Below are positions 24,401 through 61,718 of a stretch of 64,000 nt of DNA, piece by piece; position 1 is the stretch's first letter; every line of letters begins with the position of its first letter. The notes beneath the pieces are model-generated. The model was not told the origin of the DNA, ran no database searches, and worked only from the letters and a program-made list of their open reading frames with translations. A program made the translations under genes and the position numbers. This DNA comes from Styela clava. Taxonomy: Eukaryota > Chordata > Ascidiacea > Stolidobranchia > Styelidae. The stretch lies in NCBI RefSeq assembly GCF_964204865.1, contig NC_135251.1:19344001-19408000 (forward strand), in the 5' to 3' direction.

Positions 24401-27400
24401 AACCTCTAAATATAATATATGAATATTTAAGGTATACTATAAGGTTATAGAGACAATCATAGCTGTGCGTGGAATTCATACTTCAAAAAGTATTCACACA
24501 ATCTTGGATTTCCATCAGATTTCTAAGTGTAATTCGCACGCAATCACCAAGCTTTCTCCATATATTTTTGTTTTTATAATTTATGTAAAAGAGAGAAATT
24601 TATAAAAAATCACTTGAATACGAAATTAAGAAATTATAGTTTTGACTCAAATGACGATTTCGATAATTTTTCAATAAGCATTAGCAGCTTCGAATTTTAT
24701 ATCGGTCATTTAATTTAGACACTAGATTAGTGTTTTTGAAATAATTTCTAATTAAATAAATTTTCTTCATAAAGTGTTTCAGGACATTCACGTTATGATA
24801 TTGATCGGTTTTGGATTTCTGATGACGTTTCTTGCTCACCATGGATTCGGGTCAGTCGGGTTCAATTTTATGCTGACATGTTTTGTCATCGAATGGGCGA
24901 CACTCATCAATGGGTATTTTAAAATGATTGGAACTGGAAATGACAGAATTTTGCTAGATATTACCAGGTTTGTTTATTCACCAATGTTTTCTTACTTCGC
25001 TTTCAAATAATACTATTTTTAAAATGGAAGCTTCAGATGTTCACAGAATGTATTTTTAATAATGTATATATATATATATATGTTATATCAAATAAGTCGC
25101 TGACACGTTCAAAACTTTCTATCAATTTTTTACAATCAAAAAATAATTGTTTTATTTAATATACGTTTGTATCTCGCTCCAAATATGTATGCTGACTGGA
25201 AGATTATCATTTGAAGCTATATCATAATGTTGTATCGTTTTTATAAAGAAAAAAACTTCCATACGTTCAGAATAGCTCGAGTAGTCATTCATTGTTGTAG
25301 CCTTGCCTGTAAAATTTTAACAGCAGTCCTTTGTTGATGAACCTGTATAGGGTTCATACTACATTCCCCATCGAAGATTGGAATTTAGCGTTGAGTGCCG
25401 GTATCTCTGTTGCAGATAATCCCTCACTGTTTTAAACTAAAATATCTGTATGTTTAATTATTGTGTTCGGGTCAAGGCATCGCGTGCAAATCGAGTCGGG
25501 ATTGCCTGAATAAAGTGAAAGGAGATACCTAAAGCCCCAATGTTGATGGAGTGGTGCATAAATTTTACCATTGTATATGCAATCCTAACCAACTGGAAAA
25601 ATACAATAAATTGGCTGTTGCGAGTTAGTATTAATATGCGGGGGGTGAATATGATATTATCTTTATCATTTGCATAATCAATTGATATTGTTCTTCACCC
25701 ATACTCATCAGCAAATTCATACTTGAAGGTTGAACTATTGAATTTGTAAACATTGAAGTTTATTAACATAATAATACAGAATAGAGACTAAATTTTTACC
25801 TTGAAGGAATCTCAAGTTCAATATTTGGCAAACCTTAGCGGTAAATTGTTCAATAGCACCTTGTGTAACAAAAAAATCGATAAAATATTTGAGTAGGAAG
25901 TAAAAAATAATCGGAAACTGAAAAATAACCAAAAGCAGGAGATATTTTTATAGCCAGGACTCTGTTATATTGCAATACGTCAAATGACAATAAATGCAAT
26001 ATAGTACTCCAAAATTGCAATTATCTTCAAGGTTGAGTTTCAGGTAATCGAGAAATATACTTAAAAATGTGCTTTTAACGTAATCCTATCAACATACCAG
26101 CATCCAACCATAAAAAAGGGTAACGTTGTTCCGATAAAAAAATTTCGTTGAAATTTATCTTTTTTATTGTAAAGAATCTATTCGACCATACTTTACTATA
26201 ATTGGTGAACGTGGTTGACTAGCTTTTGGGGTGTTATTTCATATCCTCCAATAGAAATACAAATTATGTGCTCCATATACATGCGTATCGCTTCATCGCT
26301 CACGCTTCATAGTTCATAAATAGCCTCAAATGTGGTACCGTATATATTTTTTCTTGGATTGCACAACACTTCCGGGTTATTCGCCATCGTTTCGGTTTAC
26401 AAAACCGCAAATATGATGGTAGAAGACGGCGCTTTTTTGGTAAACAACATCTTACGAAAAATGCGAACTAATAAAAGGTTGTACTTGGTATACCATGTTC
26501 GTCCCCGTCACAGTATGTGTTAACTTTCAACTAAAATTATTTGACCTATAGGAAAGTAAGTAATTCAGTAAAATTTATTTATGAAATATAACAGATTGCA
26601 AACGAACCAATAATATTTTTTGTGCATATTAGTTTCATGGAAGCCGACTTCGCCGTGGCCACCGTTCTCATATCATTTGGCGCTTTGCTGGGTAAGACAA
26701 GTCCTGTCCAACTTCTTGTTATGGCAACACTTGAGGTCATTTTCTACAATATCAGCATTTACGTTGGCGTCGGTATTTTCAAGGTTTGTATATTGCAATA
26801 TTGTTTCACGGGTATGCAAAGTTAGGATAGAATATGGAGAAATCAAATGAATACAGGTTTTCTAACCTGTCTGTGCGTTTCAGTTGTTGTTTGTACAGCA
26901 CCTTCTTGAAATAAATGAGTGAGAACATGTTTGTAACTCAGAAATGTTGAGATTATGAACACAAATAGAGCGATGTTGTGGGGAATTTTCATTTATCTGT
27001 GTGTGCTAAAATGTTGAATATCTCCACTTTTTGGGTGATACACATATATAATATATATATACTGTATATATTGTATCCTTGTCGTTGAGTATTGAGTCAA
27101 ACCAATAAGAACAAATGCCTTAGCTTTTATATACATGAAACCTATAATCATCGTCACTAGGAGTCAATTTAATAAGTGTAAATAAAACTTTTATGAGATA
27201 TTTATTGATATGCTACAATAAAACTACCGCTGATATCATATTGAGTCTTTCAACCATGAACAGGCTATCGACGTTGGAGGATCAATTTTTCTTCACGCAT
27301 TTGGTGCTTACTTCGGTTTGGCCGTATCTCGAGTTCTTTACAAGAAGGCTCAAACTCAGAGCAGTAAGGAGACATCCATTTACCACTCTGACATTTTTGC

Positions 27401-29071
27401 TATGATCGGTAGGTAAAACTTTTTATTTGCGTAAAATATTTGATAAGAATGTTTCAAATAAGCGCATTATCAATATTGCAGCATGCGAACTCCCTGAACT
27501 CATTATTTTCAGGTACGATTTTTCTTTGGCTGTACTGGCCCAGCTTCAATGCGGGTCCTGCTGCTGACAACGAGCGCCACCGTGCAGTCATCAACACAAT
27601 ACTCAGTCTCTCTTCTTGTACAGTGATGACATTTGCTCTATCTTCTATCGTCAACAAAGACAATAAACTTGACATGGTAATCTTAATAATATTATATTTA
27701 AATAAAAACTATATATTTCAGAATAATAATTGTTTACACTGTAAATATGTTGAAATACCATTAAAATCATGGCCATTTGCTTTTTTTTATTATTAATTGA
27801 AATATTCAAAGGTTCATGTTCAAAACGCTACATTGGCTGGTGGCGTTATAATGGGAGCATCTGCCGATTTGATGATTCAGCCATTTGGTTCTTTAATTGC
27901 TGGTATGGTAGCTGCAACTGTTTCAACTTTGGGATATAAGTACCTGCAGGTGAGCTTTATACTTAAGTGGACTATCGACTATAAATAATTTTCAATTTTT
28001 TAGTATAATTTGTTGATATTCGGAAGATTTTGTTTAGTTTCTTATGAATTTTTTAGCGGCAAAATGAATTCTGTTTGAATGTATTTAAATAAATATATCA
28101 TAGAGCAAATACTAGAACCTAGCTGAGTCTGAACTTGTAATGTAAATATGCAAATGCATTTATGTGTAGTAAGCATGTGTGCTCAAATAAATGTTACTGT
28201 TTGACTAAATGGGAAAATTAAGATTTATATTTTCTTCAGCCGATTCTCACGGAAAAAGCCAAAATTCACGACACGTGCGGCGTCAACAATCTTCACGGTA
28301 TGCCCGGTATTTTGGGAGCTGTTTTGAGTGCAATTGTCTGTGCTGCTGCTACAAGAGAGACATATGAGAAAAGGTAAACATATATATATATTCAATGACA
28401 GCCTGTAATAGATAACGTACAAAAGCAAGTAACTGGCGATGACATTGTAAGAACAACAATCCTTATTGAAATTAATGATTGCAGTTACGACGAACTATTT
28501 CCGGACTCCCGAAGCGGAACGACACAAGGCGGTTATCAGATTGCAGCTTTGGTCGTTGCTTTAGCGATAGCGTTAGTTGGCGGAACACTCACCGGATTTT
28601 TATTGAAAATGTTGCCTGGACTTTTCGACGCCCTCGATGAGAATGATTACTACGATGACGCAGTATTTTGGGATGTAAGTCAAATTATATATATGGTTAG
28701 ACTGCGAAATGGGCACATGCGTATCTAAAATCCCCACAAAAGTCGTTTAGTTGAAACATAAAAACTTAACAGTGATGTGATAAAATTGAAATTCTATAAC
28801 ACGAAAATGATTGCGCCTAAAAAAAACTTAAGTCATAAATGTGTTCTGATTGATTCCAATGCCTTGCGATAGTGAATATGTAAGTTTGTCTCACTCGACA
28901 AGCATCGAATAACAACTTATCAAATTGTTAATATATTTCATATTCATGTTTGACAACATTCAGGCTGTGGACGATCAGCCTTCGATCTTGAACGAGGAGA
29001 CAAAACCTGAATCTTTACAAGCCAGGACAAGTAAAGAAGACGAAGCAATGGCACAGGAACAACAAATTTAA
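21484..29071 (+). CDS. RH50-like: Rh-type (Rh50) ammonium/CO2 channel, gene 2
   Basis: Ten coding exons: 21484-21491, 23767-23924, 24775-24967, 26633-26783, 27264-27408, 27513-27676, 27812-27949, 28240-28373, 28485-28674 and 28964-29071. They join in phase to 462 residues ending in TAA. Exon 1 supplies only MA plus two bases of codon 3 (ATGGCTGC|gtgagt). Exon 2 continues [15 protein letters not shown], the first membrane helix. Key Rh residues are present: Asp173 and His181 in [16 protein letters not shown], His338 in [13 protein letters not shown], and [11 protein letters not shown]. An N-X-T sequon (Asn39) sits in the first extracellular loop. All eight introns after the first shared exon lie where they do in gene 1 (shared exon lengths 151, 145, 138 and 190). 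The cytoplasmic tail is acidic and differs from gene 1. A polyadenylation signal AATAAA is at 29299-29304. Likely a plasma-membrane NH3 channel with a tissue pattern distinct from gene 1, which is an inference. Confidence 0.94.
23580..24290 (+). repeat. Left arm of Rh exon-2 inverted duplication
   Basis: Exon 2 of Rh gene 2 with its flanking introns matches, in inverted orientation, about 29960-30660. Shared blocks include ACAAACTCTGCAAAAAGT, TATACCGGGATAACACAATA, exon 2 itself and TTTGTGCGTTTCATATCA. Inside this arm the block TTTGACCTTAAGAGTCA[TA]A is itself tandemly repeated, about 120 bp apart. Confidence 0.85.
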
Positions 29072-39646: not shown

Positions 39647-42193
39647 CATACACCGAATGACACACCCGTTGGAAACTTTGATTCTGAGTAACATTTATAA
39701 TATATATATTAATTTATATGAGAATTTGTTTAATGCATGAACTCACGCGCTAACTCAGAAATAAAAACTCAAGTTACATTGTTTTTTATTACCCTCTTCC
39801 CAATTTTGTTTTCAAACTCCATACCTTTGTCAATATATTTAGTGTTTGAATAACAATAACAATTTTTTTCTAAAAGATAGGCTTGAATTTCAGAGCATTT
39901 CTCAAGTATCATACAAGTAACGGTTTCTTAAGGATATGACGAAAATATTCAAACTCTGTTCAAAACACTTCCCGATGCGCAGCGTGCAATATGCCTTTGA
40001 TACAGATAATGGACCAGCAATACCCATAACTTGGGACAAATGTAGTAATGCAGAAATGCTGGAAGTCACTCCTGTCAATTCAATACCTGAAGTCGAACCT
40101 GGATATGTACAGGTTATTCTATTTTTTTTTGTGTGTGTTTTATGCAAGTGACAAGGTTAAACTAATAAATTCAATCAGTCATGAGGTCAGTAATATTTGG
40201 TAATTGATAAGCGACCAGGCCGCGTTTTCAAATGTTATGTAAATTATAGTCAGGTTGTTTCTAAATGCATTGATATTCTTATTATGATATTTAAACCCAA
40301 TACGGCCATTGGTTACATATATTTACAATTCTACAATACATATACCAGGAGCCCTGGTACAAATAAATGCACTTGAGAACAAGATGAGGATTTCGAAGTA
40401 TTTTTTAACAATTTCAATCCAATATGTCAAAATTTTGCCTGCGATTGTCTGAGCATATCACTAGTAGGCTTGCACGTAATTGACAAAAATCAATTCCGTA
40501 ATTACGTCAAAATCGATTACGTAATGACCCCGTAATTGCGATATTTTTTCACGCATTTAAAAACCTATCATAACAACCATTTGAATCCACTTCTTTTCCG
40601 AATGGGACATCGAAGCTCGATTTTCATATTCCTGGCAGTACTACTCGTCGACGAAATATGTTAAAGACAAATATCAAAGAGTATATTCAAATTAATTTTA
40701 TTTTGATTTTTAACTTTTGTGTTAGCTTTGATTTTCCTTTATCACCTTCGCAAATTAACCGTCCCAATTTTATGCGATCAATTTTGTCATTACCGACACT
40801 GGTATACGGATATTTATGAAACGATGGTTGACTTTTTTTTTAAATCGAGTTTCGTATTAAATAAAAATTTCGGGATTCCAATTTATTAAATCTACGACGA
40901 GCGTATTCTCTCGTTTGATTATACTTGCGCTTGCCTCGCGACAAAGACTTCTCATTGCACCGTTTTTTACATTATCCCACTTCACCACCTAGTTAACATT
41001 TTATAATAATTATTGATGCCGACTTATTGACGATATTCCGATTACCATGCCTCATTTTACATAAAATCTTTCCGCGTCCTAAATGTTATAACATTATTTG
41101 CGATAAATTTGTATCAAATATTAATTATTTGCGCATAATTTAAATGCCGTACCTATATGACATGCCTTTACCGAAAATACAAAGTTATATCGCAAAACAA
41201 TGCATTTTGTGACATTTATTTTGCACTAACGAAAAAATTAACTCGTTTTTCTAACTCAAATCGACGATGCTATCGCCCAAAATTGACACAAGTTTGGTCG
41301 AGTGGCGGTGGCATTCGAGTCCGCGATAAATAAAAATAAGTTGCCGCATTTGGTAAAGACAGTTGATCACATTCTCTCCTTTTGTGCGCCCATAACGGCG
41401 GTAAAATTCGTTTCATGTCTGTTTCATGAAGAGAAAGAAAAATACGACTTCCGGAATTGCAATCAACAATCACACATTCTTATTTATCATTCATTATCAG
41501 CGCCGAAAAGATACCATATCGTGAAGACAAAAAAGTCTGGCGGTGTTAATTGCGTGATAATGCAGAGAATAATATCGTTTTGACCGGGAAACCAAGATGC
41601 GCAATCGTAAAACGACGCTGCTGCTTTTTTGTAGATGAAATTGCACATTAAAATTTTCTTTCAAACGGTGGTGGCAACGCGTCATGCCTTACCCCACCTC
41701 CGTAACAAAAGAGAGAAAAACGGCTGAGATTGACGCAACTCTACTTATTAAACTTTAATTTTTTACAATCGACGGAATTGACTGCTTTGAAGAGAGCTCG
41801 TTTCAATCGTGAAAGAGCTCGACAAATATTTACGACTTTACGTAATTCGTAACTTCCCTTCCGTAACTCGAAAGCCTAATCACTAGTAAAAAGAAAAAAC
41901 GCATTTAATTATTTATCATGAATTGTTCTATTTCATATGGAAAGCTTTGAATTCCATATAGAGTTCGTGCAGTCAACGTTGGACAAAGTTCATTCGCACT
42001 TTGTCCTGGTGTTCATATCCGACCAAAAAAGTTTAACGTAGAACATGTATGCATCGGAAGTAAAAGCAAAAACATCGGTCATAATCGTGAAGAAGAATAC
42101 TGCGGTGATTTTGCTGCGAGAGATTTGTTCCAACTGGACTTTTACCACCAGAAAAAGTGCTCACATCTGTTGTCATGATATTCTATCTTTAGG
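39647..42193 (+). pseudogene. Intelectin pseudogene A (5'-truncated, frameshifted)
   Basis: Three pieces remain, all close to intelectin gene B. Piece one (39647-39687) is the last 41 nt of the large exon 6, coding HTPNDTPVGNFDSE, with its donor. Piece two (39894-40112) is exon 7, with two 2-bp deletions relative to B (219 instead of 223 nt) that create an early TGA. Piece three (about 41961-42193) is exon 8, which keeps the calcium-site motif NVEHVCIG but has a damaged acceptor end, lacks the conserved Trp after Asp and shifts frame before the terminal IFYR. Signal-peptide, collagen and neck exons are absent. A hAT-like element (40465-41878) sits in its last intron. It cannot make a functional lectin. 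Confidence 0.9.
40465..41878. mobile_element. hAT-like element, 1.4 kb, in pseudogene A intron
   Basis: The ends TAGGCTTGCACG and (reversed) TAGGCTTTCGAG are flanked by a perfect 8-bp target duplication atcactag at 40457-40464 and 41879-41886. The matching intron of gene B (about 50975, minus) has the unoccupied site catataactagtaaaaag. Subterminal GTAATTACG/CGTAATTCG motifs recur at both ends. The longest internal frames (about 60-95 codons near 41270-41685) show no transposase signature, so it is non-autonomous. Confidence 0.9.
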
Positions 42194-44422
42194 TTGAAAT
42201 TATTTGAACTGCTGCAATTTCAAAATTGACTTAGATGTGATTCAATATTTTGAAGTGCAAATATGATTGAATAAATTTTAAATTCATCATAGATCAGGCA
42301 TTCAAATTTGTTCTTATTTGCAAGATTAGAAAGTATATATAAAGAGAAATCAAATTGTGAGATATGGTAGGCAATGTTCTTGAGATTCACGCAATAAAGT
42401 TCGTTAATAAATATAGGCAACACATAAAATTTACTAATGCAGAACAATTTTTAAATTAGGCTCAGCGTTGATGTATGTACTTTAGTTTCTATAGAAAATT
42501 TTTAAATTTTTTCCTTGTATACAAAAGAAGAAAACTTAATATATGAGATTGGAGAAAACATTATTTTTGCAATTTCGCTGGGTGGGAATGATATTAGTAA
42601 TAGGAGTTATAGCAATATATATTTCTGCACTAAATTTGTGCAAATTAAGCATTCGCTTCATATAGTAAAACATTCATTATGGAATGAATGTTATTTGAAA
42701 ACGTATTAAAAATAACAGACAGAAATAACATTTTATTCATTTCTGTTTTATAAACGAGTAGTTTTGATGAAGAATTATGCTTTGACACGAAAAGAGAATA
42801 AGAGTAAAAAATTGATTTGAAGCGTGTGTTCACCACTCACAGTGAGCACATTAAGTCACATGAAATTTTTATCAAATTTAGGTTTATTGCGGAAAAAGTA
42901 TTTTACAAAAAATTCTGTCTTTAAACACGTCCTTCACGTCTTGTTTTCAAAACTAGTGCGTTGCACTGGATGTAAATCAATTGTTCAATTTCGTATTCTT
43001 CAATACATAGGTTCTCAAACTTTTGTTGTTATGGGGCCCGGGAAAAGGTTGACCAGTATTCACGAAGCCCCACAATAAATACAGAAAAAAACAAAAACAT
43101 TGTTACTTATCAATTAATGCTCCAGAGTAAATTAAAATTACTATATTTAGGGAAACGAATGTATTTGCAGCTATGTATTTAAAAATATTCCGTATTCAGA
43201 TTTAATAGAGAAACAAATAGCTCGCGGAGTTCGTATGTAGCACTTTGAGAACATATGCTTTAGTACATTCATGCTTTAAATATTTCTGGATATTTTTAAA
43301 TTTACTAATGACACGGAAATGATATAATAATGTGAGAATTACATTCACTGAAGATCAGGGTTTGTTAATAATAACTACTTGTCTTATAACTACTTGAATC
43401 ATCTTTAATTTCAGACGCGATAATACCCATTTTCTGTCGAAGCGGCCTAGATTGGATTGAAATATAAATGTGTATTGCAATATCAGTCTATACTTCTATA
43501 GTACCAAGATTATAATCGAGCCTTTGACAATTCATGTTAATACTTACATAAACTTCGAGAATATTAGACAGTCACTATATATACAATAACAAAAACGGAA
43601 CGCACAAATATGTTCACGATGTATCGGTACCACGGTGTTGAATAATTAAAAAAATAATAACAAATTTCAAATTTAATACGGCCAGCTTATTTTATTTTGA
43701 AATTCATTGATCGTCGGCAATATGGTAAAATACCTAAAACTATTACTGATGTTGCGCAATCAATATTACTTCATTAATATTTGTCTCAATATTTAGGCTT
43801 TGGGATTTTTGATAGCTGTATAAGTTTTAAAGCCAAAATAATTTATATCTTCAACTATGAAAATATATACTGCTTTTAGAACAAAATCTATTCCTTTCAT
43901 GAAACGCGATATATATAATTTAGAGCGCCATATCTTGAATCAAATGTAACTGTATTATTTCATTCAACTCCTCATTTTTTAAAGCATTTTAGCACGCAGC
44001 AGTAATATTAATTTAAAATCTCAACCAGATTCTTTAATCGTTTAATTAAATACGTTTAGCTGTTATTATTTGAATCAGCAATAACTTTAAAGGCTTACAT
44101 TTTTGTCCTTGAGGTGCGACTCAATTGAAAATGAATTGAAAGCAGTATGGTTATACCCCGGTTAAACTCGAGCTCACATACGAGCTGGTGATTGAACATT
44201 TGTCTTCTGAATAGGCAATAGGCATCTCTGTAAAGCCTCCAGGCATAAGCGTACATCCGACATTTGAACAACTTGGTGAAGGTATATTATTATAATGAGA
44301 GATAGTTTGCAAAGCTAGTGTAGTAACAAAATGTACTAGGCCTACTGGTATTATTCCGCCTTGATGCATATTGGCCCATAATTCATTTATTGCTTGTTTC
44401 AGATTTCGAAAATAAATAAATA
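42194..44422. other. Spacer between pseudogene A and intelectin D
   Basis: No gene. It is the inverted paralog of the spacer 49143-50662 and holds one probable hAT insertion (43009-43260). The promoter of the following gene must lie near its right end but no motif can be pinned down. Confidence 0.5.
43009..43260. mobile_element. Probable hAT-like insertion
   Basis: Begins AGGTTCTCAAACTTTT, with an inverse GCACTTTGAGAAC near the right end. The flanks caatacat (43001-43008) and tagtacat (43261-43268) match at six of eight bases. The inverted paralog near 49850 reads straight through (CAAATACATTTCTGATTTAA), so this block is an insertion. The exact right end is uncertain. Confidence 0.5.
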
Positions 44423-47400
44423 ATGAGTAAGTTATTGTTTTTGTCCTTTCTGAATATGCTGCTACTGTATACCACAGATGCAAATTTATACCAAATGGAA
44501 AGGGGTGAGCATATCAAATTGAAATTTTTATGTAGTCTACTAGCAAATATGTTGACAAAGCAATTGATAACCACACGCTTACAGCAGATAACAATTGTTG
44601 TTTAGCATAGACGTTGAATGTGAAAATCGGTTGATTGTAGAGATGTTTTTTGATCATTTTTCTTCTCATTAGTTTTGGTAGAAATTATGCTGTATTGAAA
44701 AATATTTCTGTGCAATAGATGCCCAAACCAAAGAGTGAAAAAGACAGTTGCGAATTTGGTGGTCTTTTATAAACACAGACTATATAAAATCCAACAATAA
44801 TTTTCCGATCAGTCAGACTGTTATCGATAAGTAATTTTTTGAACGTATAAGTATTTGTGTATGCACATTATGTTCTTGGTTCATCATTTCAAAATCAGCT
44901 GAACCGGTCTCTCCCTGCCACGATTGTATGCAATGATGAGGCTAGATAAGGTTGATTTTTGTGGTTATTCCAACTCGAAGCGTGCGAAATTTTTTGAAAG
45001 ATGAGGATGTATCTGCTAATCCCTTTGCTTTGATTAACTGTACTTTGACACACTGCTATTCAATTTTCGTCGCCTTTACCTACAGCACTGGGCTGATTCA
45101 AGGCACAGAAACAGATAATACCATTTCCACTTAAAGGATTTTATTCACAATTTTCTGAGCAAAAAAGCAGTTTAATAACATCCTTTTCAATTGCTTTTTA
45201 CTTTAATAACGGACTTATGAAATATCGATATAATATTTCTGTCGAATTTTACTTTCGAGTACTAAAATCAACGGATACAAGAGGTAAAATAATTTACATG
45301 CTTCACGTCATATAACCACGATTAGGTAGAACATAAGAACGTTCTGATAGCCCAAAAATACTAGTTAGTCTTCATTTCAAGGTTCAACTATAAAGTTGCA
45401 ATGTCCTAATACGAACGATGATGTTGCGAACCCTGGGATGAATATGATTATTGGAAGACCCGGCAAAATGGTGAGATATTGTCGTCGAAAAATGTTTAAA
45501 GTGATTTTCCATATATATTTATATTAATTCACTAACTTGTTTCCTATTAAATCCACCAGCTTGTTATTCCCGAGTACGAGATGACCTATGTATTTCCCAG
45601 CCGCAGGCTACGCCGTGCAAATGTTTACCACTGAACACGAATTATCTGATAGTTGAAATGATATATTATTCTACAACAATCAAATTCATGTCACTACAAC
45701 AACAATTTGAATAACGATGTATATATGTTTCAATGAAAATGTTGCTAAAATGTATAATATTATCTATTTCGATTACTGTGAATTTGATTAGTTATAATTA
45801 TGGTTGTATAATCAAAATAAAATGAATATAAATATGATTATATCCAGTGGTGGGATTAATGCTAACCGGTTCGTACCGGTTCTATAAAACCGTCTCACGG
45901 AATTTTATGAGATCAGCGAACCGGTTAGCATTACTGGTTACTGTCAATTTTCAAACAGAATATGACTTCTGTGATGGAACCGGCTGACAAAAAATTGAAT
46001 CCCACCACTGATTATATCTATGTTTTATCTCAGTAAATCAACTTTGTTTAGGGTCCACAAGGTCCACCAGGCCCACCTGGCATAAAAGAACCCGACTCTG
46101 TTCTAAGAAGGAAATACGAAGGTTAGATGCCAGTCGTGATAATCTACTAATTTATGCTAAGATTTACCTTTCATCGTTTTTTTTTAATTTCAGGAAGAAT
46201 ATCAGAATTGGAGACAAAGTTATCGAGTACGCGTAATGTTATAATTTGAGCACATTAATAGAAGTGCATCGTTTCTCGCGTTATTGGATAAATTAAGTAC
46301 TTAGTACCACATTTTATAGTCAACGCTCGCGTACACAACAATATCAATTCAGCGCAGTCAAAGAGAATTTATTTTAAATGAAAAGTTTTGTGCTAGCAGT
46401 GTATGTATTGGTTTGATTTTTGTTTGTTGTTTTCAACAAGATTGGAATCATTTAAAAACCTTTTCTCATTTATATAGTTGCAATGTGTACTTTATTTTTT
46501 TGGACTATGACAAATGTTTGTACGCACGCGCCATACTTGATGAATCAGAAGTTAGTTCGAGTTTAGAACTCCTCAGAGCATATTCTCCTTCATAGATTTG
46601 TTAACCAGTATGACTGTTTTAACAGATCTGAATGCAATTGGAAAATTAGGATCTCACTCCAATCCAGCAACAAGTTGTTTGCAAATCAGACAAACGAATT
46701 CAGCTTCAAGCAATGGAATATACTACCTTGTCGATAGTGAGGTGCGTCAATATTATAGAACATAAAAACAAATAATAAAAACTTATACAATAGGGTTGAA
46801 ATACCTAAACTTTATTTCAGCTTTCCATAATAGATTTGAACTATGGTACCCAAACAGATTTAAGTCTTCTCGTAATTTTAATGTTAGATTTTAGTTGTTG
46901 ACCAAAACTTTAATATATTGTAGCAAAACGTGTTCTCGACATACTGTGATATGACAACAGATAGTGGTGGGTGGACTCTCATTGCATCTATCCATGAAAA
47001 CAACATGAATGGAAGGTGCACAGCTGGGGATCGGTGGTCAAGTGAGCAAGGAAATAGCGCTGAACATCCGCACGGAGACGGATTTTGGGAAAACCGAGCC
47101 ATTCATGGAAGTGCCTCATCGTCTAGCAGTGATGATTATAAAAGTGTTGGCTATTTCACTATGAAAGCAGAAGATATCATGATATGGCATGTTCCAAATG
47201 ACACACCAATCTAGGTAAAAATGTTGGGAAAACCTTACTGAATTACCCGTTTGACTTAATTAAACTAAAATGCCTTATTATCTCCTACTTAATACTCTTC
47301 ATTGAAGTAATCCATTTTGCACATTCATTAGATATTTCACATATATTTCTATAAGTTTTAGGATCCAATGACGAGGTATATAGAATATCTTAAACCAATT

Positions 47401-48145
47401 AGAAAGCATTTCAGTCACATTCCGTTACGGCGTTATACCCTACATTCAGGCTAATGCCCTTCGCGTTCATTCATCATTCTTTCTCATAAAAAAATACTGG
47501 AAGATATGGTTTGGTTGCGTTTCTTTAATAGCACTTTCTAATTGCAGTGCATTTCTGAAATACTTCACCCGATCAAAGTTCTTAACGACATATGGTGGAA
47601 ATCTGCAGACTTTATACACTGGGTATTTCCCAATGAGGAGCAAAACATACAGAACAAACACGGACAATGGACCTGCGATTCCAGTTTACTGGGCTAGAGG
47701 AAGTGGTGACAAATTGGCGGCTTTTTTACCTTCCAACGCTCAGGCCGAGACAGATTCAGGTTATATTCAGGTGGGTCCAAAATAGACGTTGCTATGGCTC
47801 TACAAATTCCTTTGACCACAAACATGCAAAAATGATCACAAGAAAATATTAAATCCTAACAAAGCTGATTGAGACTTGATTGTTATAATAATGTTTCCTA
47901 ATTCTGTTTGTTTACAGTTTCGAGCCATAAACAAAGAAAGAAACGCATTTGCACTGTGTCCAGGGGTGCGAATTAAAAGGGGAAAGTTTAACGTTGAACA
48001 CGTGTGCATTGGTAGCACAAGCTACAACATGGGGGGGCATGGTGGAGAAGAAAGATATTGCGGTGATTATGCAGCAAAAGATTGGCCAAAGTGGACATCA
48101 AGCGACAAACTCATAAAATCTGTCGTTATGATATTCTACCGTTAG
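44423..48145 (+). CDS. ITLN-like: Collagenous intelectin gene D (one in-frame TAG)
   Basis: Exons 44423-44504, 45382-45470, 46052-46121, 46194-46226, 46626-46741, 46924-47214, 47362-47375 (14 nt), 47548-47770 and 47918-48145 join in phase to 382 codons including the TAG stop. Order of parts: signal peptide (MSKLLFLSFLNMLLLYTTDA); Cys35; Gly-X-Y triplets GRP GKM GPQ GPP GPP GIK (52-69), containing PGKMGP; a short heptad neck (GRISELETKLS); the fibrinogen-like start YCDMTTDSGGWTLIAS; and an intelectin C-terminus with NVEHVCIG, CGDY and IFYR. Intelectins are secreted, calcium-dependent lectins for microbial exocyclic 1,2-diols. Exon 6 is split relative to genes B and C by an extra intron, and its last codon (47212-47214) is TAG. 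All later exons stay open, so this is a fresh nonsense change, a sequence error, or an unrecognised splice. Polyadenylation signal AATAAA at 48146-48151. Confidence 0.85.
45845..46010. mobile_element. hAT-like MITE, 166 bp
   Basis: The terminal inverted repeats CAGTGGTGGGATT and AATCCCACCACTG are perfect. The 8-bp target duplication attatatc is exact at 45837-45844 and 46011-46018. The element lies in intron 2 of intelectin D and is rich in internal ACCGGTT inverted motifs. Confidence 0.95.
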
Positions 48146-50662: not shown

Positions 50663-50893
50663 TTAACGATAGAATATCATGACAACAGATTTGATCATTT
50701 TTTCTGGTGATGACCATCTAGTGCTGAACCAATCTTTTGCTGCAAAATCACCACAATATTCTTCTTCACGATCATGACCGATATTTTTGCTTGTACTTCC
50801 GATGCATACATGTTCTACGTTGAACTTTTTTGGTTTGATACGAACACCAGGACAAAGTGCGAATGAACTTTGTTCGACGTTGACTGCACGAAA
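48500..50893 (-). repeat. Right arm of inverted segmental duplication
   Basis: Read on the minus strand it gives gene B exon 8, then the spacer, then an intelectin exon 1, then intron 1, the same order as 41960-45110 on the plus strand. It lacks the insertions at 40465-41878 and 43009-43260. Confidence 0.85.
49053..49142 (-). pseudogene. Orphan intelectin signal-peptide exon, broken
   Basis: The minus-strand ATG opens LLSFLNMLLLY-type signal sequence and DAKCVDKAIDN, then TAA. Compared with exon 1 of gene D (44423-44504), the segment from the codons after DA to the middle of intron 1 is deleted, including the MERG codons and the donor, so intron sequence is read through to a stop. No downstream intelectin exons follow on this strand. 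Confidence 0.85.
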
Positions 50894-53800
50894 CTGTAGA
50901 TAGAATTAAAGGTTTCCATCAGATACAGAAATGAGAACCAATGATAAATAAATAAATGTATTTCTTCTTTTTACTAGTTATATGATCAGACAATAGCAGG
51001 CAAAATGTTTGACATGTTGCAATGGAATTGTTGAAGAATACTTCGAAATTACCATTTTCTACTCAGATATATTTATTTGTAACAAGTTTTTTGTTATGTA
51101 CATGGAGAACTGTATATATATGTAACCAATTTTTGTATTGAATGTAAACATAATAATAAGAGTATAATAAACTATCTGTCTATAATTTACAACACATTTG
51201 AAAACGCGGTCTAATTACTTACCAGTTACCGAATTTTACTGACCTCTTCACTGATCGATTTTTTTAGTTTAATATTTTCACTTGCATAAAACAAACACAA
51301 AAAAATAGAATAACCTGTACATATCCAGGTTCGATTTCCAGTCTTGAATTGACAGGAGTGACTTCTAGCATTTCTGCATTACTACCTTTGTCCCAAGTTA
51401 TGGGTATTGCTGGTCCATTATCTGTATCAAAGGCATATTGCTCGCTGCGCATCGGGAAGTGTTTTGAATAGAGAGTTTGAAGATTTCCGTCATATCCTTG
51501 TAAGAAACCATTACTCGTATGATACTTGAAAAATGCTCTGAAATTCAAGCCTATATTTTTGAATAATTTGGTAATGTTATTTAAATAAAAAATTTATTGA
51601 CAAAGGCATGAAATTTAAAAAAAGTTGCCAAGAGGAGAATGAAAAATCAATATCTGGGAGTAGGAAAAAATGACAAGGCAGTAAATTGGTAACGCAGTTC
51701 CATGCCTTGTGCTACTGGTATTCAAGGCGCCTATTGTAGAACTACATGTTTGTATATATGCCATAACTTTTGCTTTTTCAATGGTTACTTGTTACTCTCT
51801 TTCCAGGTAACTTGAGTTTTTGAGTATTTCTGTGTTGACGCGTGAGATCATGCATTGAAAAAATCTGAATTATATATTTTAATAGTTACTCAGAATCAAA
51901 GTTTCCAACGGGTGTGTCATTTGGTGTATGCCATATCATAACGTCACGTGCATTCATTGCAAAGTATCCAGAATTTTTATAATCGTCACTGGTGGATGAA
52001 GACGCACTTCCATGAACAGCTCTGTTCTCCCAGAAGCCGTCACCGTGAGGATGTTGTGCACTATTTCCTTGTTCACTCGACCATCTATCGCCTGATGTGC
52101 ATCTTCCCTTCATATTGTTTTCGTAAACAGAAGCAACGAGAGTCCACCCTCCACCACTAATATTCATGTCGCAATATGTTTGAAATACATTTCCCTGAAA
52201 TTTTTTATAGTCCCAGTATGCATCCCATCTAAAGGTCTATTCTATGCTAAATGACAACAATATGCAGTTGAGGTCAATGATGCAAACATAAATAAATAAA
52301 TATAGTAAACATTTCAAGGGTAAAATATCTTGTTTAGCTATTAATCTCTACTTGATGGTCACAAGAAATTTAAGAAAACAAGTACGAAATGAATATTTTA
52401 CCTCCATATCCTTGATATAATAGAGACCATTTTCGGCGTTATCATTCGCTTGTTTTATGGCTTTGCAATTTTCCGCAGGATTTCCAACTTGTCCTAGTCC
52501 ACCTAATTGCTCGCTTTGTGCTGAATATACAACTTACATGAGTTACGTTTATGAGTTACAGTGTTTCACTAATTTTATAATTATTGATAGATAAATGTTT
52601 TCCAACAGAAACTGAAAGCTTTTTATGAAAAGTGTTGCTGCTCTGGTCAACAAAATTGTTCCAAGATTATATTTTAGTCATTTTGATTGTTTGCAAAATG
52701 AATCAGCGCCCAAAAATTAAAATTCTGTTATCAATTCACATTATTTACAGTAAAATCACCAGGCTTGTCCATGGGACATATTTTTTGTCCCATTCTCATC
52801 CCATCCCATAGCAATTATGCCTGTCCCATCTCATCCCATGGGATTTCCATTGGAATAAAATTCAATAAAAATTGTTAAATTTGGGTTTAGCGTCCATTAA
52901 ACAGGACTACATGTACGAATAGACATGCAAAACAGCAAAATTCACGGACTTTGTTAGCTTTAAACTTAGAACTACTATACATGTGTCCATCAGCCCCTTC
53001 ACGAAGTATATTGTTAATGCTGAATATATTTTGCTCTTTATAACTAACAAGAGAGTTATGTTCAAATATATGAAAACGAAGTCCATAACGAAATGTTTTA
53101 CCATCATTTCCCCGAAAATCATACGGTTTTCGCGTCCCATGGGATATACAAATGTGTGCTGTCCCATCCCATCCCATGGGACGTTTCTCATGGACAAGCC
53201 TGCAAATCACACAATACAACAAGAATGTTAAATACGCGATCATACGTATGAATGATAAGTTTGGACTGTTTGTTTTAAAAATGTTTCAGCAAATTTTTTA
53301 TCGGATATAATGAAGATTGTTAAATTATTTTGATATCGTTTTTACTTATAACGATTCCGTTCTTTTTTTCAGTTCTCTCGAACTTAATATATATATATAT
53401 ATATATATAAATGATCTTGTTTATGGTCAAAGTCAAAAATTAGAAATAAACTCATCACATACCTGATAATTGAGTTTCCAACCCCAAAATTCGATCTAGA
53501 TTTGAATAAATATGATTTTGTTACATTTTTTAATTTCGAAACTTGGCAGGATTCTTGGTTTTTTGTTTGACACGGAACAGGAGTTTTAGCAACTGCGCGT
53601 TTTTGCCAACTTTCTTTTTTAATATTTTGCTTATTTTGGTGTTGTCCGAACAACTTGTAAGCTATATTACGCTCTTAGTTAGGATATCCTTTTGGAATTT
53701 TATATATATAAGATTCTTTATAGTTCACCTTCATATCTTCTCCGTATTTCTGAATCTGGTTCTTTTGCACCAGGCGGTCCTGGTGGACCTTGTGGACCCT

Positions 53801-54482
53801 AAACGTCAAGTAATAAAGCTAAACTCAGAGGTTCAAATTAACTTGTTTGGGCTTGTGAATGTGTCATGAAGCACTGATGTAGGCAATCTTAATTTTGTCA
53901 AGATTTTTTACCCTTGTGAAACAATATAAAACATACCAACGGCAACAGACGGGGAGGACATAAGGTATGTTCGAACTGTCGTGGCATGTAAAATACACCA
54001 TTCAGAGTATATAACTTGAAAATGATTATTACTAACAGCACTTTTATTAACAGAACTCTTTAGTACTACAACAATTCAAAAATTAAGTTTGCTGTCAATA
54101 AAGTTTTCACGCTTTCCGTTTTAAAAGTTTTAAAATTCTCACTCTTTTTCCCGGTTTTCCTGTAGATATGTTTACATGCGATATATTTGACTCGTATTCT
54201 AAATCATCTTGTTCGTCTCCGGGACAGACCAATTTCAAAGCAGATCCTAAAGATAAAATTGGACCAGGTCCTGGATATGCCAGAAACAAAAATATTAGCA
54301 ATAGTAACGTTATTTGCTTATTTAGGTCAAGTGTGACTTTAATCATCAATAGCTCATAATTAATAATCATTCATAGCTTGAAGAATTTTTTTATACAATC
54401 CCATACCTCTCTCCATTTTGAACATCGATGACGTTGCATTTCCCAAAAGTAAAAAGAGTAAAATTATGAAACACAACTTCAT
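50663..54482 (-). CDS. ITLN-like: Collagenous intelectin gene B
   Basis: Exons on the minus strand: 54482-54407, 54246-54143, 53798-53729, 53495-53463, 52520-52402, 52194-51890, 51537-51315 and 50893-50663. They give 386 residues ending in TAA. Parts: signal peptide (about 1-19); Cys33, a possible inter-chain disulfide; six Gly-X-Y triplets, residues 55-72, including PGKRGP at 57-62; a coiled-coil neck (about 76-105, DRILGLETQLS); a fibrinogen-like start (NGLYYIKD, YCDMNISGGGWTLVAS); and the intelectin domain. Residues matching the human intelectin-1 calcium site are Asn315, Asn335, Glu337, His338, the 353-355 Glu run and Asp359. Aromatic pocket candidates are Trp365 and Trp370, Trp370 standing where human has Tyr297. 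The acceptor of exon 2 is chosen by conservation with C and D; a second AG 24 nt upstream would add eight residues. Intron 4 contains a hAT-like element. Probably a secreted multimeric pattern-recognition lectin. Confidence 0.92.
52760..53202. mobile_element. hAT-like element in intelectin B intron 4
   Basis: The ends CAGGCTTGTCCATG(G/A)GA are inverted repeats. Target duplications are aaaatcac (52752-52759) and caaatcac (53203-53210), seven of eight. The interior has many CCCATCCCATGGGA repeats. The same intron of gene C (near 60439) reads uninterrupted, so the insertion postdates the B/C duplication. Confidence 0.88.
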
Positions 54483-57747: not shown

Positions 57748-60700
57748 CTAACGATAGAATATCATGACAACTGATGTGATTATTTTTTCTGGTGCGGACC
57801 ACCCTGATGAATGACTCCAATCCTTTGCTGCAAAATCACCGCAGTATTCTTCTTCGCGTGTATGGCCGATGTTATAGCTTGTACTTCCGATGCATACATG
57901 TTCTACGTTTCGCTTGTTTGGTTTGATACGAACACCCGGGCAAAGTGCAAACGCATTTCGCTCGTTGTTGACTGCTCGAAACTGCAAATACAATTTTATT
58001 TTTGTTTCGGAAATATATATTCGGACTTAGAAGATTAATCAAGAAAACCAAAATTATTATAAAGAAAATTTACTTTAAGTAAAAGTATTTCTTCTTCTTA
58101 TGAATGACTGAATCAGGAATTTATTAATTGAAATATTTCAAATTAGTGGTACGGAATCTCTGGAGACAAATTTTATTGTTATGTGTTATATAATTAAATA
58201 CAGAAATATGAGTTATGCGTCTTATTCCTGCGTCTAATATTTACTATAATAGAGCATATTTGTTGCATTAAATATAACTTGACACCGACAATTTATTACT
58301 ACAACCATAGCAGCAATAGACAATATATCAATACATAAACAAACTATTTTCGCCTAACCCGCATGTCTAGCTTCAATTAAATTGGGAAAAGCTGCGTTAG
58401 TAATTTTGTTATTTAGTGAAAATAAATGAGGATAAGTAAATAACCTGTACATATCCAGACTCGGTTTCACCTCTTGAATTAATTGGAGTAAGTTCCACCA
58501 TTTTGGCATTACTACCCTTGTCCCAAGTTATAGGTATTGATGGTCCATTGTCTTTATTAGCGGTATATTGTTTACTGCGCATCGGGTAGTGTTTTGAATA
58601 AAGAGTTTGAAGATTTCCGCCGTATCTTTGTAAGAAACCATTACTCGTATGATACTTGATAAATGCCCTGAAATTTAAATCCACGTTTTAGTATGAAGTT
58701 TATTGATATAATTTGGATGCAAATTATTACAAACATACTTTTAAAAGGCATGGATTTTAAAAGAATTGCTCACTGGAAAAAAACTTAAATAAATGGAATA
58801 TGTTGGGGTAGTTAAATATTTACAATAACCTGACAGTGAAGTTTTCTGAACGTTACTTTTGATCTTTACTTCTGAACACGAGTTCTGATCATTTTTTAAA
58901 GAATTGAAATTTTCATTTTTTTTAATAATATTTTAATTTAATAGTAGTTACTCAGAATCAAAGCTTCCAACTGGCGTGTCATTTGGTGTATGCCATAACA
59001 TAATGTCGCGTGCATTCATTGCAAAGTATCCAGAATTTTTATAATCGTCACTGGCGGATGAAGAAGCACTTCCATGAACAGCTCTATTCTCCCAAAAGCC
59101 GTCACCGTGTGGATGTTGTGCACTGTTTCCTTGTTCACTCGACCATCTATCGCCTGATGTGCATCTACCCTTCATATTGTTTTCGTCAACAGAAGCAACG
59201 AGAGTCCATCCTCCACCATTAATATCCATGTCGCAATATGTTTGAAATACATTTCCCTGAAAATTTTATTAGTCCCAGTATGCATCTCATCTGAAGGTCT
59301 ATTTCGTGGGTGGGCAACCTTTTTCGGATCGCGTGCCAAAATATGCTGAAATTAACGACAAAATTCTTCCGCGTGCCGACCAAAATTAAAAACAATTCTA
59401 TGCTATCTTCAAAGCAATGATGCACAATAATAAACCACTTCAACATGTACAGATAGATTCACTATTCGGGAAAATATCAGTCCGACAAATATATTTGATT
59501 ACTTTTCTTATTCGATATCAGTAAGACTTCTGCTGATTCATTACCGCTGATAGAGATTTTACGTTGGGTTCATATTTTGTAACTTTCAGAGTAATACACG
59601 GACTACTGGTTTCATCAGTCAGGCTACTCCTATTACGAGACTTAATAAAGTTCATAACTGAGAACAGAGATTCACAAACATATGTAATATATTTCTTTGT
59701 AGCCATATGTCATGAAAAAACAAAAAGGGTTTAAATAAATAACGGATGGTTAAACGATAATAAATAAACAAACACCGAGTTTCTTCAGATAATTCATCAG
59801 AGTCTTGAAACTTTTTATCTGAAGGACAATGATCTCGTTTCCGAGGGCTCGCTCGCGTGCTGAATGAATGGGCTCGCGTGCCAAGTTCGGCACGAGTGCC
59901 AGGGGTTGCCCACCCCTGGTCTATTCTATGCTAAATGGCAACAATATGCAGTAGAGGTCAATGTTGCAAACATAAATAAATAAATATATAGTAAACACTT
60001 CAAAGTAAAAAAAAAATTGTTTAGCCATCAATTTCTACTTGATGGTCACAAGGAATTTTAGTTAATAAGTACAAAATGAATATTTTACCTCATTATCCCT
60101 GATATAATAGAGACCATTTTCGGCGTTATCATTTGCTAGCTTTATGGCTTTGCAACTTTCCGCAGGATTTCCAATTTGTCCTAATCCACCAATTTGATCA
60201 TTTTGTGCTGCATATACAACGTACAGTATATCAGTTAAACTGTTTCGTTAAGTTTTATAACTTTCAACTGATAAATATTTGCCAAATAGAAACTGAAAGA
60301 AACTTTTCATAAAAAATAATGCTGCTGTGTAAAAAAAAATCGTTCCAAGATTCTGTTTTAGTCATTTTGATTGTTGGCAAATAGAATCAGTTCCCAGAAA
60401 TCAAAACTGAATTGTGTGATCAATTCGCATCATTCACAGTCAACACAAAACACAACAATATTACATACGCGATCATACATATAAATGATAAGTTTGAACT
60501 GTTTGTTTTGAAAAAGTTTCAGCAATTTTTTTTTCGGATATAAATGATGATTATTGAATCATTTTAATATCGTTTTTACTTCTCCCGATTCCGTTCTCTT
60601 ATTTCGTTCTCTCGAATTTATTACATATATGAAGATGTTTATAGTCAGAGTCAGAAATTACCAATAAACATATCACATACCTTTCAATTGAGTTTCCAAC

Positions 60701-61718
60701 GCCAAAATTCGATCTAAATTTGAATAGATATTTGTTACCACATTTCTGCATTAAGAAACTTGGCACGATTCTTGGTTGTATGTTTTTAGCTGCTGCGCGT
60801 TTCTGGCAACTTTCTTTTTTAAAATTTGCCTATTTTGGTGTTGTCCGAACCTGTCAGCTATATTACGCTTCTAGTTAAAATTTACTTTTTGGAATTTTAT
60901 ATATATACAGATTTAATATAGTTCACCTTCATATCTTCTCCGTATTTCTGAATCTGGTTCTTTTGCACCAGGCGGTCCTGGTGGACCTTGTGGACCCTAG
61001 ACGTCAAGTAATAAAGCTAAACTCAGAATAAGGCAAAGTGATTGAAGCTAACTTGTTTGGCCGTGTGAATATGATTATGTGTCACGAAGCAATGCTGTAG
61101 GGTGTAGTAGGCAGTCTTCACCTTGTCAAAATTTCCAATCAATATGACAATACTAATGACAATAGATTGGAAAGAACATAAGGTGTGCAAATTGTCGTGC
61201 CTTGTAAAACGCACCATGTTGAGTATTTAACGTAAAAGTTATTATTAACAACAGTACTTTTAGTAACAGAAATCTTTGATACTATTAACGATTCCAAAAA
61301 CGGTTGCTGTCAATACAGTTTCCAGTTTCCGAGTTTTATATTTGAAATATGTTTAACACAAGTTTCTAAAATTCATACTCTTTTCCCCGGTTTTCCTCTA
61401 GATATGTTTACATGCGATATATTTGACTCGTATTCTAAATCATCTTGTTCGTCGCCGGGACAGACCAATTTCAAAGCAGATCCTAAATATAAAATTGGAT
61501 CAGGTGTTGGACATGTCAAAAACAAAAATATTAGCAATAGTAACGTTATTTGCATGTTTAGGGTAGATGTGACTTCAATCACCAATAGCTCATAATCAAT
61601 ATTTCTTCATAGCTTGGAGAAAATTTTCATACAATCCCATACCTCTCTCCATTTTGAACATTGATGACGATGCATTTCCCAAAAGAAAAAAGAGTAAAAT
61701 TATTGAACACAACTTCAT
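57748..61718 (-). CDS. ITLN-like: Collagenous intelectin gene C
   Basis: Tandem paralog of gene B with the same eight exons: 61718-61643, 61482-61379, 60996-60927, 60713-60681, 60207-60089, 59256-58952, 58667-58445 and 57981-57748. It encodes 387 residues ending in TAG. Signal peptide, Cys33, six Gly-X-Y triplets with PGKRGP (57-62), neck (DRILALETQLK), fibrinogen-like and intelectin regions are all intact. The last exon keeps NVEHVCIG, an acidic EEE run before CGDF, DW and a Trp near SGWSAPEK. The upstream alternative acceptor seen in B is mutated here (AG to AA), which confirms the inner acceptor for exon 2. Exon 7 has diverged most from B (YTANKDNGPS against YAFDTDNGPA), so ligand preference or stability may differ, which is an inference. 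Intron 5 contains a hAT-like element. Confidence 0.92.
59305..59918 (+). mobile_element. hAT-like element in intelectin C intron 5 (family 1)
   Basis: The ends CGTGGGTGGGCAACC and (reversed) CAGGGGTGGGCAACC are inverted repeats. Flanks gtctattt (59297-59304) and gtctattc (59919-59926) match at seven of eight. Gene B has the single uninterrupted site GGTCTATTCTATGCTAAATG near 52230. The interior matches the element at 664-1083 in the opposite orientation. Confidence 0.93.

Follow-up and report, generated by a model that had tools for sequence, protein, structure and literature searches.

The window analysed here is a stretch of 64,000 nucleotides from the ascidian Styela clava (contig NC_135251.1, positions 19,344,001 to 19,408,000), and it carries intelectin genes, which we call A to D, among which B and C join an intelectin head to a collagen stalk. 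Genes B (54482 to 50663) and C (61718 to 57748) lie on the minus strand, have eight exons each with GT-AG borders and are intact, encoding proteins of 386 and 387 amino acids, respectively (Table 1). Both proteins are built in the order signal peptide, short segment with a single Cys, collagen, charged neck and intelectin head. The interval singled out by the original prediction, 53729-54246, is exactly gene B exon 3 to exon 2 on the minus strand. In the best register, the necks of B and C place a hydrophobic residue at six of nine a/d places, which, like the lone Cys of exon 2, is no more than suggestive of trimers and higher oligomers. In gene D (plus strand, 44423 to 48145), the phases of exons 6 and 7 do not match. 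D is probably a broken gene, or else the assembly is in error at exon 6, because this exon is 14 nucleotides short, holds an in-frame TAG and loses the phase; the stop and the lost phase are also why we reject D as a third working copy.

The collagen of B and C comprises six uninterrupted triplets, GKP GKR GPQ GPP GPP GAK, ahead of the lectin head, and that of D reads GRP GKM GPQ GPP GPP GIK. Intron 2 of B and C is in phase 0 and splits PGKRGP between Arg and Gly, and the PGKMGP of D sits at the same exon 2/3 junction. The gene models therefore agree with the original prediction that six Gly-X-Y triplets, PGKRGP included, lie between signal peptide and lectin domain in B and C, and that the motif spans the exon 2/exon 3 junction in all three genes. 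The Pfam Collagen model scores below its cut-off in each (E 0.35 for B, 0.41 for C and 0.017 for D), since the stretch, at six triplets, is short. Furin-type cleavage at the KR of the motif was considered and set aside: such cleavage calls for Arg at P4, and the residue there is Pro.

The head that follows is a whole intelectin head. Gene B residues 109-386 align to Xenopus XEEL 13-289 (E 9e-79) and to human ITLN1 (E 2e-69), and gene B has both the fibrinogen-like start and the intelectin-specific C-terminal part. EH.CIG, CGDF and one Trp, candidates for calcium and glycan ligand residues, are kept in the alignment. In B and in C, a Gly-X-Y stretch precedes the head within one intact gene, and the predicted joining of an intelectin head to a collagen stretch is real.

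Comparison of the copies indicates which parts of the stalk have been held constant. Over 31 codons, beginning with the collagen, B and D differ by 14.5 synonymous changes at 23.5 sites and 9.5 non-synonymous changes at 69.5 sites, corresponding to a synonymous divergence (dS) of 1.3 and a non-synonymous divergence (dN) of 0.15. Every Gly is kept, as are the Lys and Pro of the motif, which confirms at codon level the retention of the motif Gly, Lys and Pro originally noted between these two genes. The portion of exon 2 before the collagen has a dN of 0.56. Between B and C, exons 2-3 show one non-synonymous change at 131.5 sites and two synonymous changes at 39.5 sites, compared with 60.25 at 722.2 and 49.75 at 186.8, respectively, after residue 83 (Fisher p 7e-4 for non-synonymous and 3e-3 for synonymous changes, on rounded counts). 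dS is 0.05 in exons 2-3 (53729-54246, 60927-61482) versus 0.33 in the later coding part, and the aligned block of exons 1-4 with their introns is 79.5% identical. The stalk exons of B and C are more conserved than the downstream part, even at synonymous sites; this high identity could reflect short-tract gene conversion or constraint on the exons.

All features of the intelectin genes are collected in Table 1. Upstream of them, open frames on the plus strand at 24756-25007 and 27413-27793 match the ammonium transporter family.

Table 1. Intelectin gene features in the window (positions are those of the 64,000-nucleotide stretch)
Feature	Position	Strand	Basis or remark
Gene A, remnant of a B-like intelectin (exons 7-8), frame changes	39647..42339	+	open frames and alignment
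Gene D exon 1, signal peptide	44423..44504	+	gene model
Gene D exon 2, Cys and GRPGKM	45382..45470	+	gene model
Gene D exon 3, GPQGPPGPPGIK then neck start	46052..46121	+	gene model
Gene D exons 4-5, neck and head start	46194-46226, 46626-46741	+	gene model
Gene D exon 6, in-frame TAG at end, phase lost	46924..47214	+	14 nt shorter than gene B exon 6
Gene D exons 7-8, own open frame, out of phase with exon 6	47548-47770, 47918-48145	+	open frames and gene model
Gene B exon 8, lectin head end and stop	50663..50893	-	gene model and head alignment
Gene B exon 7, lectin head	51315..51537	-	gene model and head alignment
Gene B exon 6, lectin head	51890..52194	-	gene model and head alignment
Gene B exon 5, neck end and fibrinogen-like start	52402..52520	-	gene model and head alignment
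Gene B exon 4, neck	53463..53495	-	gene model
Gene B exon 3, GPQGPPGPPGAK then neck start	53729..53798	-	phase 0 junction with exon 2, giving PGKRGP
Gene B exon 2, single Cys then GKPGKR	54143..54246	-	gene model
Gene B exon 1, signal peptide	54407..54482	-	ATG start, donor GT, phase 1 end
Gene C exons 4-8, neck and lectin head	60681-60713, 60089-60207, 58952-59256, 58445-58667, 57748-57981	-	gene model
Gene C exon 3, GPQGPPGPPGAK then neck start	60927..60996	-	gene model
Gene C exon 2, Cys and GKPGKR	61379..61482	-	gene model
Gene C exon 1, signal peptide	61643..61718	-	gene model

A search of the genome for intelectin heads gave at least 94 exon matches. Upstream sequence was read for part of these, the genes being chosen by head and not by motif, and collagen was found in six: B, C and D, and three genes beyond the window, at C16:16.57 Mb, C8:15.57 Mb and C17:9.02 Mb (contig:position). 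The C16 gene reads GPS GKK GPK (SGKKGP), has 16 triplets in total and ends in a VVDY neck, which is also the neck of the C-type-lectin-like stalks described below; an exon with CKEIKQ and GLYDIK links its stalk to the head. The C8 gene reads GRD GKR GPV (DGKRGP) within seven triplets, its link to the head being one of nearness only. GKxGP is therefore present in five of the six collagen-bearing intelectins (B, C, D and the unlinked C16 and C8 genes), and the full PGKxGP in three. Heads at C13, C14, C17:8.57 and C1:27.38 Mb, with about 1 kb or less of upstream DNA, fall outside this count.

The motif also recurs on stalks with other heads. We counted the DNA pattern for each peptide against its reversed pattern over the whole genome (376.6 Mb, 379 contigs). 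PGKxGP gave 213 matches against 61 reversed, and PGExGP, a control of equal degeneracy, gave 89 against 71; a 2x2 test of the excess gives p 3e-6 over places that are not independent, and the Lys enrichment is measured against this single matched control. Twenty-nine distinct PGKxGP places were read (L001-L028; eight preset, 20 chosen favouring clusters and one in both), of which 22 are collagen stalks and seven are not collagen. In all 22 stalk exons the motif stands at the start of the readable collagen, and in L020 the open frame itself begins there. The X residue is Arg in 17, Ile in three and Met and Ala in one each, in a set selected throughout on Lys.

Downstream head exons lie on the same strand as their stalks and are joined to them by nearness only. 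A fibrinogen domain, in two pieces above the Pfam cut-off, follows the PGKIGP stalk L017, and a C-type lectin domain just below the cut-off follows the PGKRGP stalks L018 and L021. The downstream pieces of L010 and L015 gave no Pfam match. In L015 (C5:17.461-17.468 Mb) a PGKRGP stalk is followed by a Cys-containing open frame, YIGCYKEE..., and in L027 (C6:2.319-2.326 Mb) a PGKRGP stalk is followed about 1.9 kb downstream by an F5/8C exon above the Pfam cut-off, an unusual pairing that is again one of nearness. At C6:13.26-13.60 Mb we observed a tandem cluster of 25 PGKxGP stalk exons, with a VDY neck in both that were read (L009 and L010). This interval also contains 26 of the 89 PGExGP places, and 25 of these have PGKxGP exactly 18 bases upstream, a check that is independent of selection on Lys and that applies within one tandem family.

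Docking through such a stalk would need a partner in the same genome. With the CUB1-EGF-CUB2 region of human MASP-1 as probe (identical to PDB 4aqb), we obtained 60 matches. A MASP-type gene at C8:17361200-17371500 comprises CUB1, EGF, CUB2, two CCPs and a protease (exons read by eye; the first CCP by Pfam, the second by eye), and its protease contains AAHC, ENDIAIL and DSCQGDSGG. The calcium ligands of MASP-1 are E49, D57, D102, S104 and N105 in CUB1 and E216, D226, D263 and S265 in CUB2, and the collagen Lys contacts three calcium-coordinating residues per CUB (PMC5300068). In the C8 gene, the CUB1 matches to E49, Y56, D57, D102, S104 and N105 are identical, such that all five calcium ligands are kept, and the CUB2 matches to E216, Y225, D226 and D263 are identical, with S265 replaced by Thr. 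A MASP-type gene, on which the original prediction depended, is thus present, with the calcium and lysine sites of its CUB domains. Beside the CUB1 site lies a six-residue insertion with acidic residues, which, as a guess, might pair with the PGKRGP Arg. Additionally, the interval C8:17.31-17.36 Mb contains four ordered CUB1-EGF pairs, one of which was read; this suggests a tandem set of MASP-type genes. The genome also has one GH6 match above the family cut-off (35.4 bits, cut-off 27), whereas none of 14 control genomes has any; GH6 joined to cellulose synthase is a hallmark of tunicates, and together with the intelectins and MASP it makes a tunicate host very likely, in line with the source of the DNA.

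Taken from sequence, these features suggest, short of proof, that the B and C intelectins switch on complement, and they may work like ficolins or collectins. B and C would be secreted intelectins in which a neck and a short triple helix of collagen carry the head. The head would bind a microbial glycan, as is usual for the family, and the stalk would trimerise, with its prolines hydroxylated. The GKxGP Lys, which occupies the X position of its triplet, would dock into the calcium site of the MASP CUB domains, and binding of the head to a microbe would lead, through active MASP protease, to C3. Docking of MASP by B and C through the stalk Lys is our best reading, though we hold it tentatively and at a little short of even confidence. 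There is precedent for the function in the lamprey, whose intelectin LSSL comes together with MASP-1 on target cells and favours the deposition of C3 (PMC9682848). A review notes that ascidians have MASPs, MBLs and ficolins, along with a C-type lectin reported to interact with MASP when C3 is activated (PMC5465252); markers of an ascidian endostyle include C3 and two intelectins (PMC9953650). It is also possible, although we would sooner question it than assert it, that a shuffled GKxGP stalk is a common MASP-docking handle on intelectin, C-type lectin, fibrinogen and F5/8C heads, in which X has shifted from aliphatic to Arg.

Several observations weigh against MASP docking by the stalk Lys. 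The published MASP-binding motif requires an aliphatic X (PMC2592599), and the PGKRGP of B and C has Arg. Since joint replacement of the Lys and the aliphatic residue in rat MBL abolished binding (PMC2592599), we regard this Arg as a true deviation from the consensus. The PGKMGP of gene D, a sequence that the original prediction also places in human ficolin-3, does satisfy the consensus, but D, with its exon 6 stop and lost phase, is probably broken. The first motif residue can vary: the putative motif of collectin-11 is HGKIGP (PMC6172411), and therefore this residue need not be hydroxyproline. The stalk is also short, with the motif at the helix start, whereas in MBL the motif lies beyond an interruption (PMC2592599). 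Among the other intelectins, the C17:9.02 Mb gene, whose collagen is linked to the head by nearness only, reads GRP GKP GSL (PGKPGS) and lacks the motif, so that retention of GKxGP, seen in the other five, does not extend to it; no collagen was found within about 4 kb upstream of the heads at C5:17.161, C5:17.170, C1:10.943 and C1:10.968 Mb. Many of the stalk places share ancestry, and the counts are accordingly not independent. The next exons of L024 and L028, C-type-lectin-like by eye, gave no Pfam match. Eight tandem PGExGP places at C10:7.93-8.03 Mb read PGERGP and may be a Lys-free version of the stalk, so that stalks of this kind may not always carry the Lys. Finally, whether urochordate collagen-bearing ficolin and MBL activate complement is described as still not clear (PMC11312191). 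As to the coupling of an intelectin to a complement-activating stalk, then, the original prediction is partly supported: the fusion, the MASP-type gene and the presence of GKxGP in five of six genes speak for it, and the Arg at X and the probable breakage of D speak against it.

The strongest rival to docking is that the collagen, the exon 2 Cys and the neck serve only to oligomerise the heads, for avidity and agglutination, with GKR-GP as a stable, MASP-free start of the helix. Arg in the Y position stabilises triple helices. B and C have a Cys, six triplets and a neck, and in each of the 22 stalk exons read the motif is where the readable collagen begins. Oligomerisation by itself does not predict the preference for Lys at the X position of the triplet, however, and the one matched control, PGExGP, is in little excess over its reversed pattern. 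We therefore consider this explanation doubtful, but a serious contender.

A less likely alternative is that MASP is engaged through the head or neck, as may be so for LSSL, and that the motif in the collagen plays no part. For LSSL, which associates with MASP-1 when target cells are present, the published description mentions no collagen stalk, and the word 'collagen' is absent from its main text; LSSL purified from serum gave no MASP-1 band, the association appearing only after target cells were added (PMC9682848). An amphioxus ficolin without collagen likewise interacts and acts with MASP1/3 (PMC11312191). The LSSL precedent hence supports an intelectin-MASP function and at the same time weakens the need for the motif, which, in view of both proteins, may be dispensable. 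We nonetheless think this route improbable, because it leaves unexplained the recurrence of GKxGP on stalks before unrelated heads. Equally improbable is a basic cluster (KPGKR, RPGKR, SGKKGPKGSR) that binds sulphated glycans or a cell-surface receptor and so anchors the protein to tissue or haemocytes: several basic residues do occur at the motif in B, C and C16, and X is Arg in most of the stalk exons read, but X is Ile, Met or Ala in five of those 22, all selected on Lys, and Met in D, while the Lys stays.

If the stalk docks MASP, intelectins would count, beside collectins and ficolins, among the recognition molecules of complement that share one lysine mechanism, and the lectin pathway of tunicates would be a plug-in system with varied heads on one effector handle. 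The proposal would be directly testable with one stalk peptide, one CUB fragment and one lysine, and would bear on the route from the lamprey intelectin to MASP, no collagen stalk being described for that protein. If the handle is indeed common to several kinds of head, the lectin pathway of this animal would be far more diverse in its heads than that of vertebrates. We do not claim priority for the fusion. The titles and opening lines of abstracts of the intelectin papers searched name no collagen-bearing intelectin, and a placozoan study states that intelectins lack collagen repeats; since the same study cites 22 tunicate intelectins already on record (PMC6321704), the fusion may be known.

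Three known groups offer comparisons. B shares with intelectins (ITLN1, XEEL and LSSL) a head that aligns over residues 109-386, and B and C differ from them in having a GKxGP collagen stalk before the head; alignments to solved intelectins begin only at query residue 109 or 111, past the stalk. Elsewhere in the genome, further lectin genes with collagen stalks resemble B and C in that a PGKxGP stalk is followed by a fibrinogen exon (L017) or C-type-lectin-like exons (L018 and L021). They differ in their heads, in having the motif in one exon where intron 2 splits it in B and C, and in having a VDY neck where B and C have a different one. Ficolins and collectins, lastly, are built as signal peptide, Cys, collagen, neck and head. 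B and C have the same order and, like MBL, the ficolins and collectin-11, GKxGP within the collagen; they are set apart by an intelectin head, only six triplets, Arg at X and a motif at the helix start, and in them MASP binding is putative.

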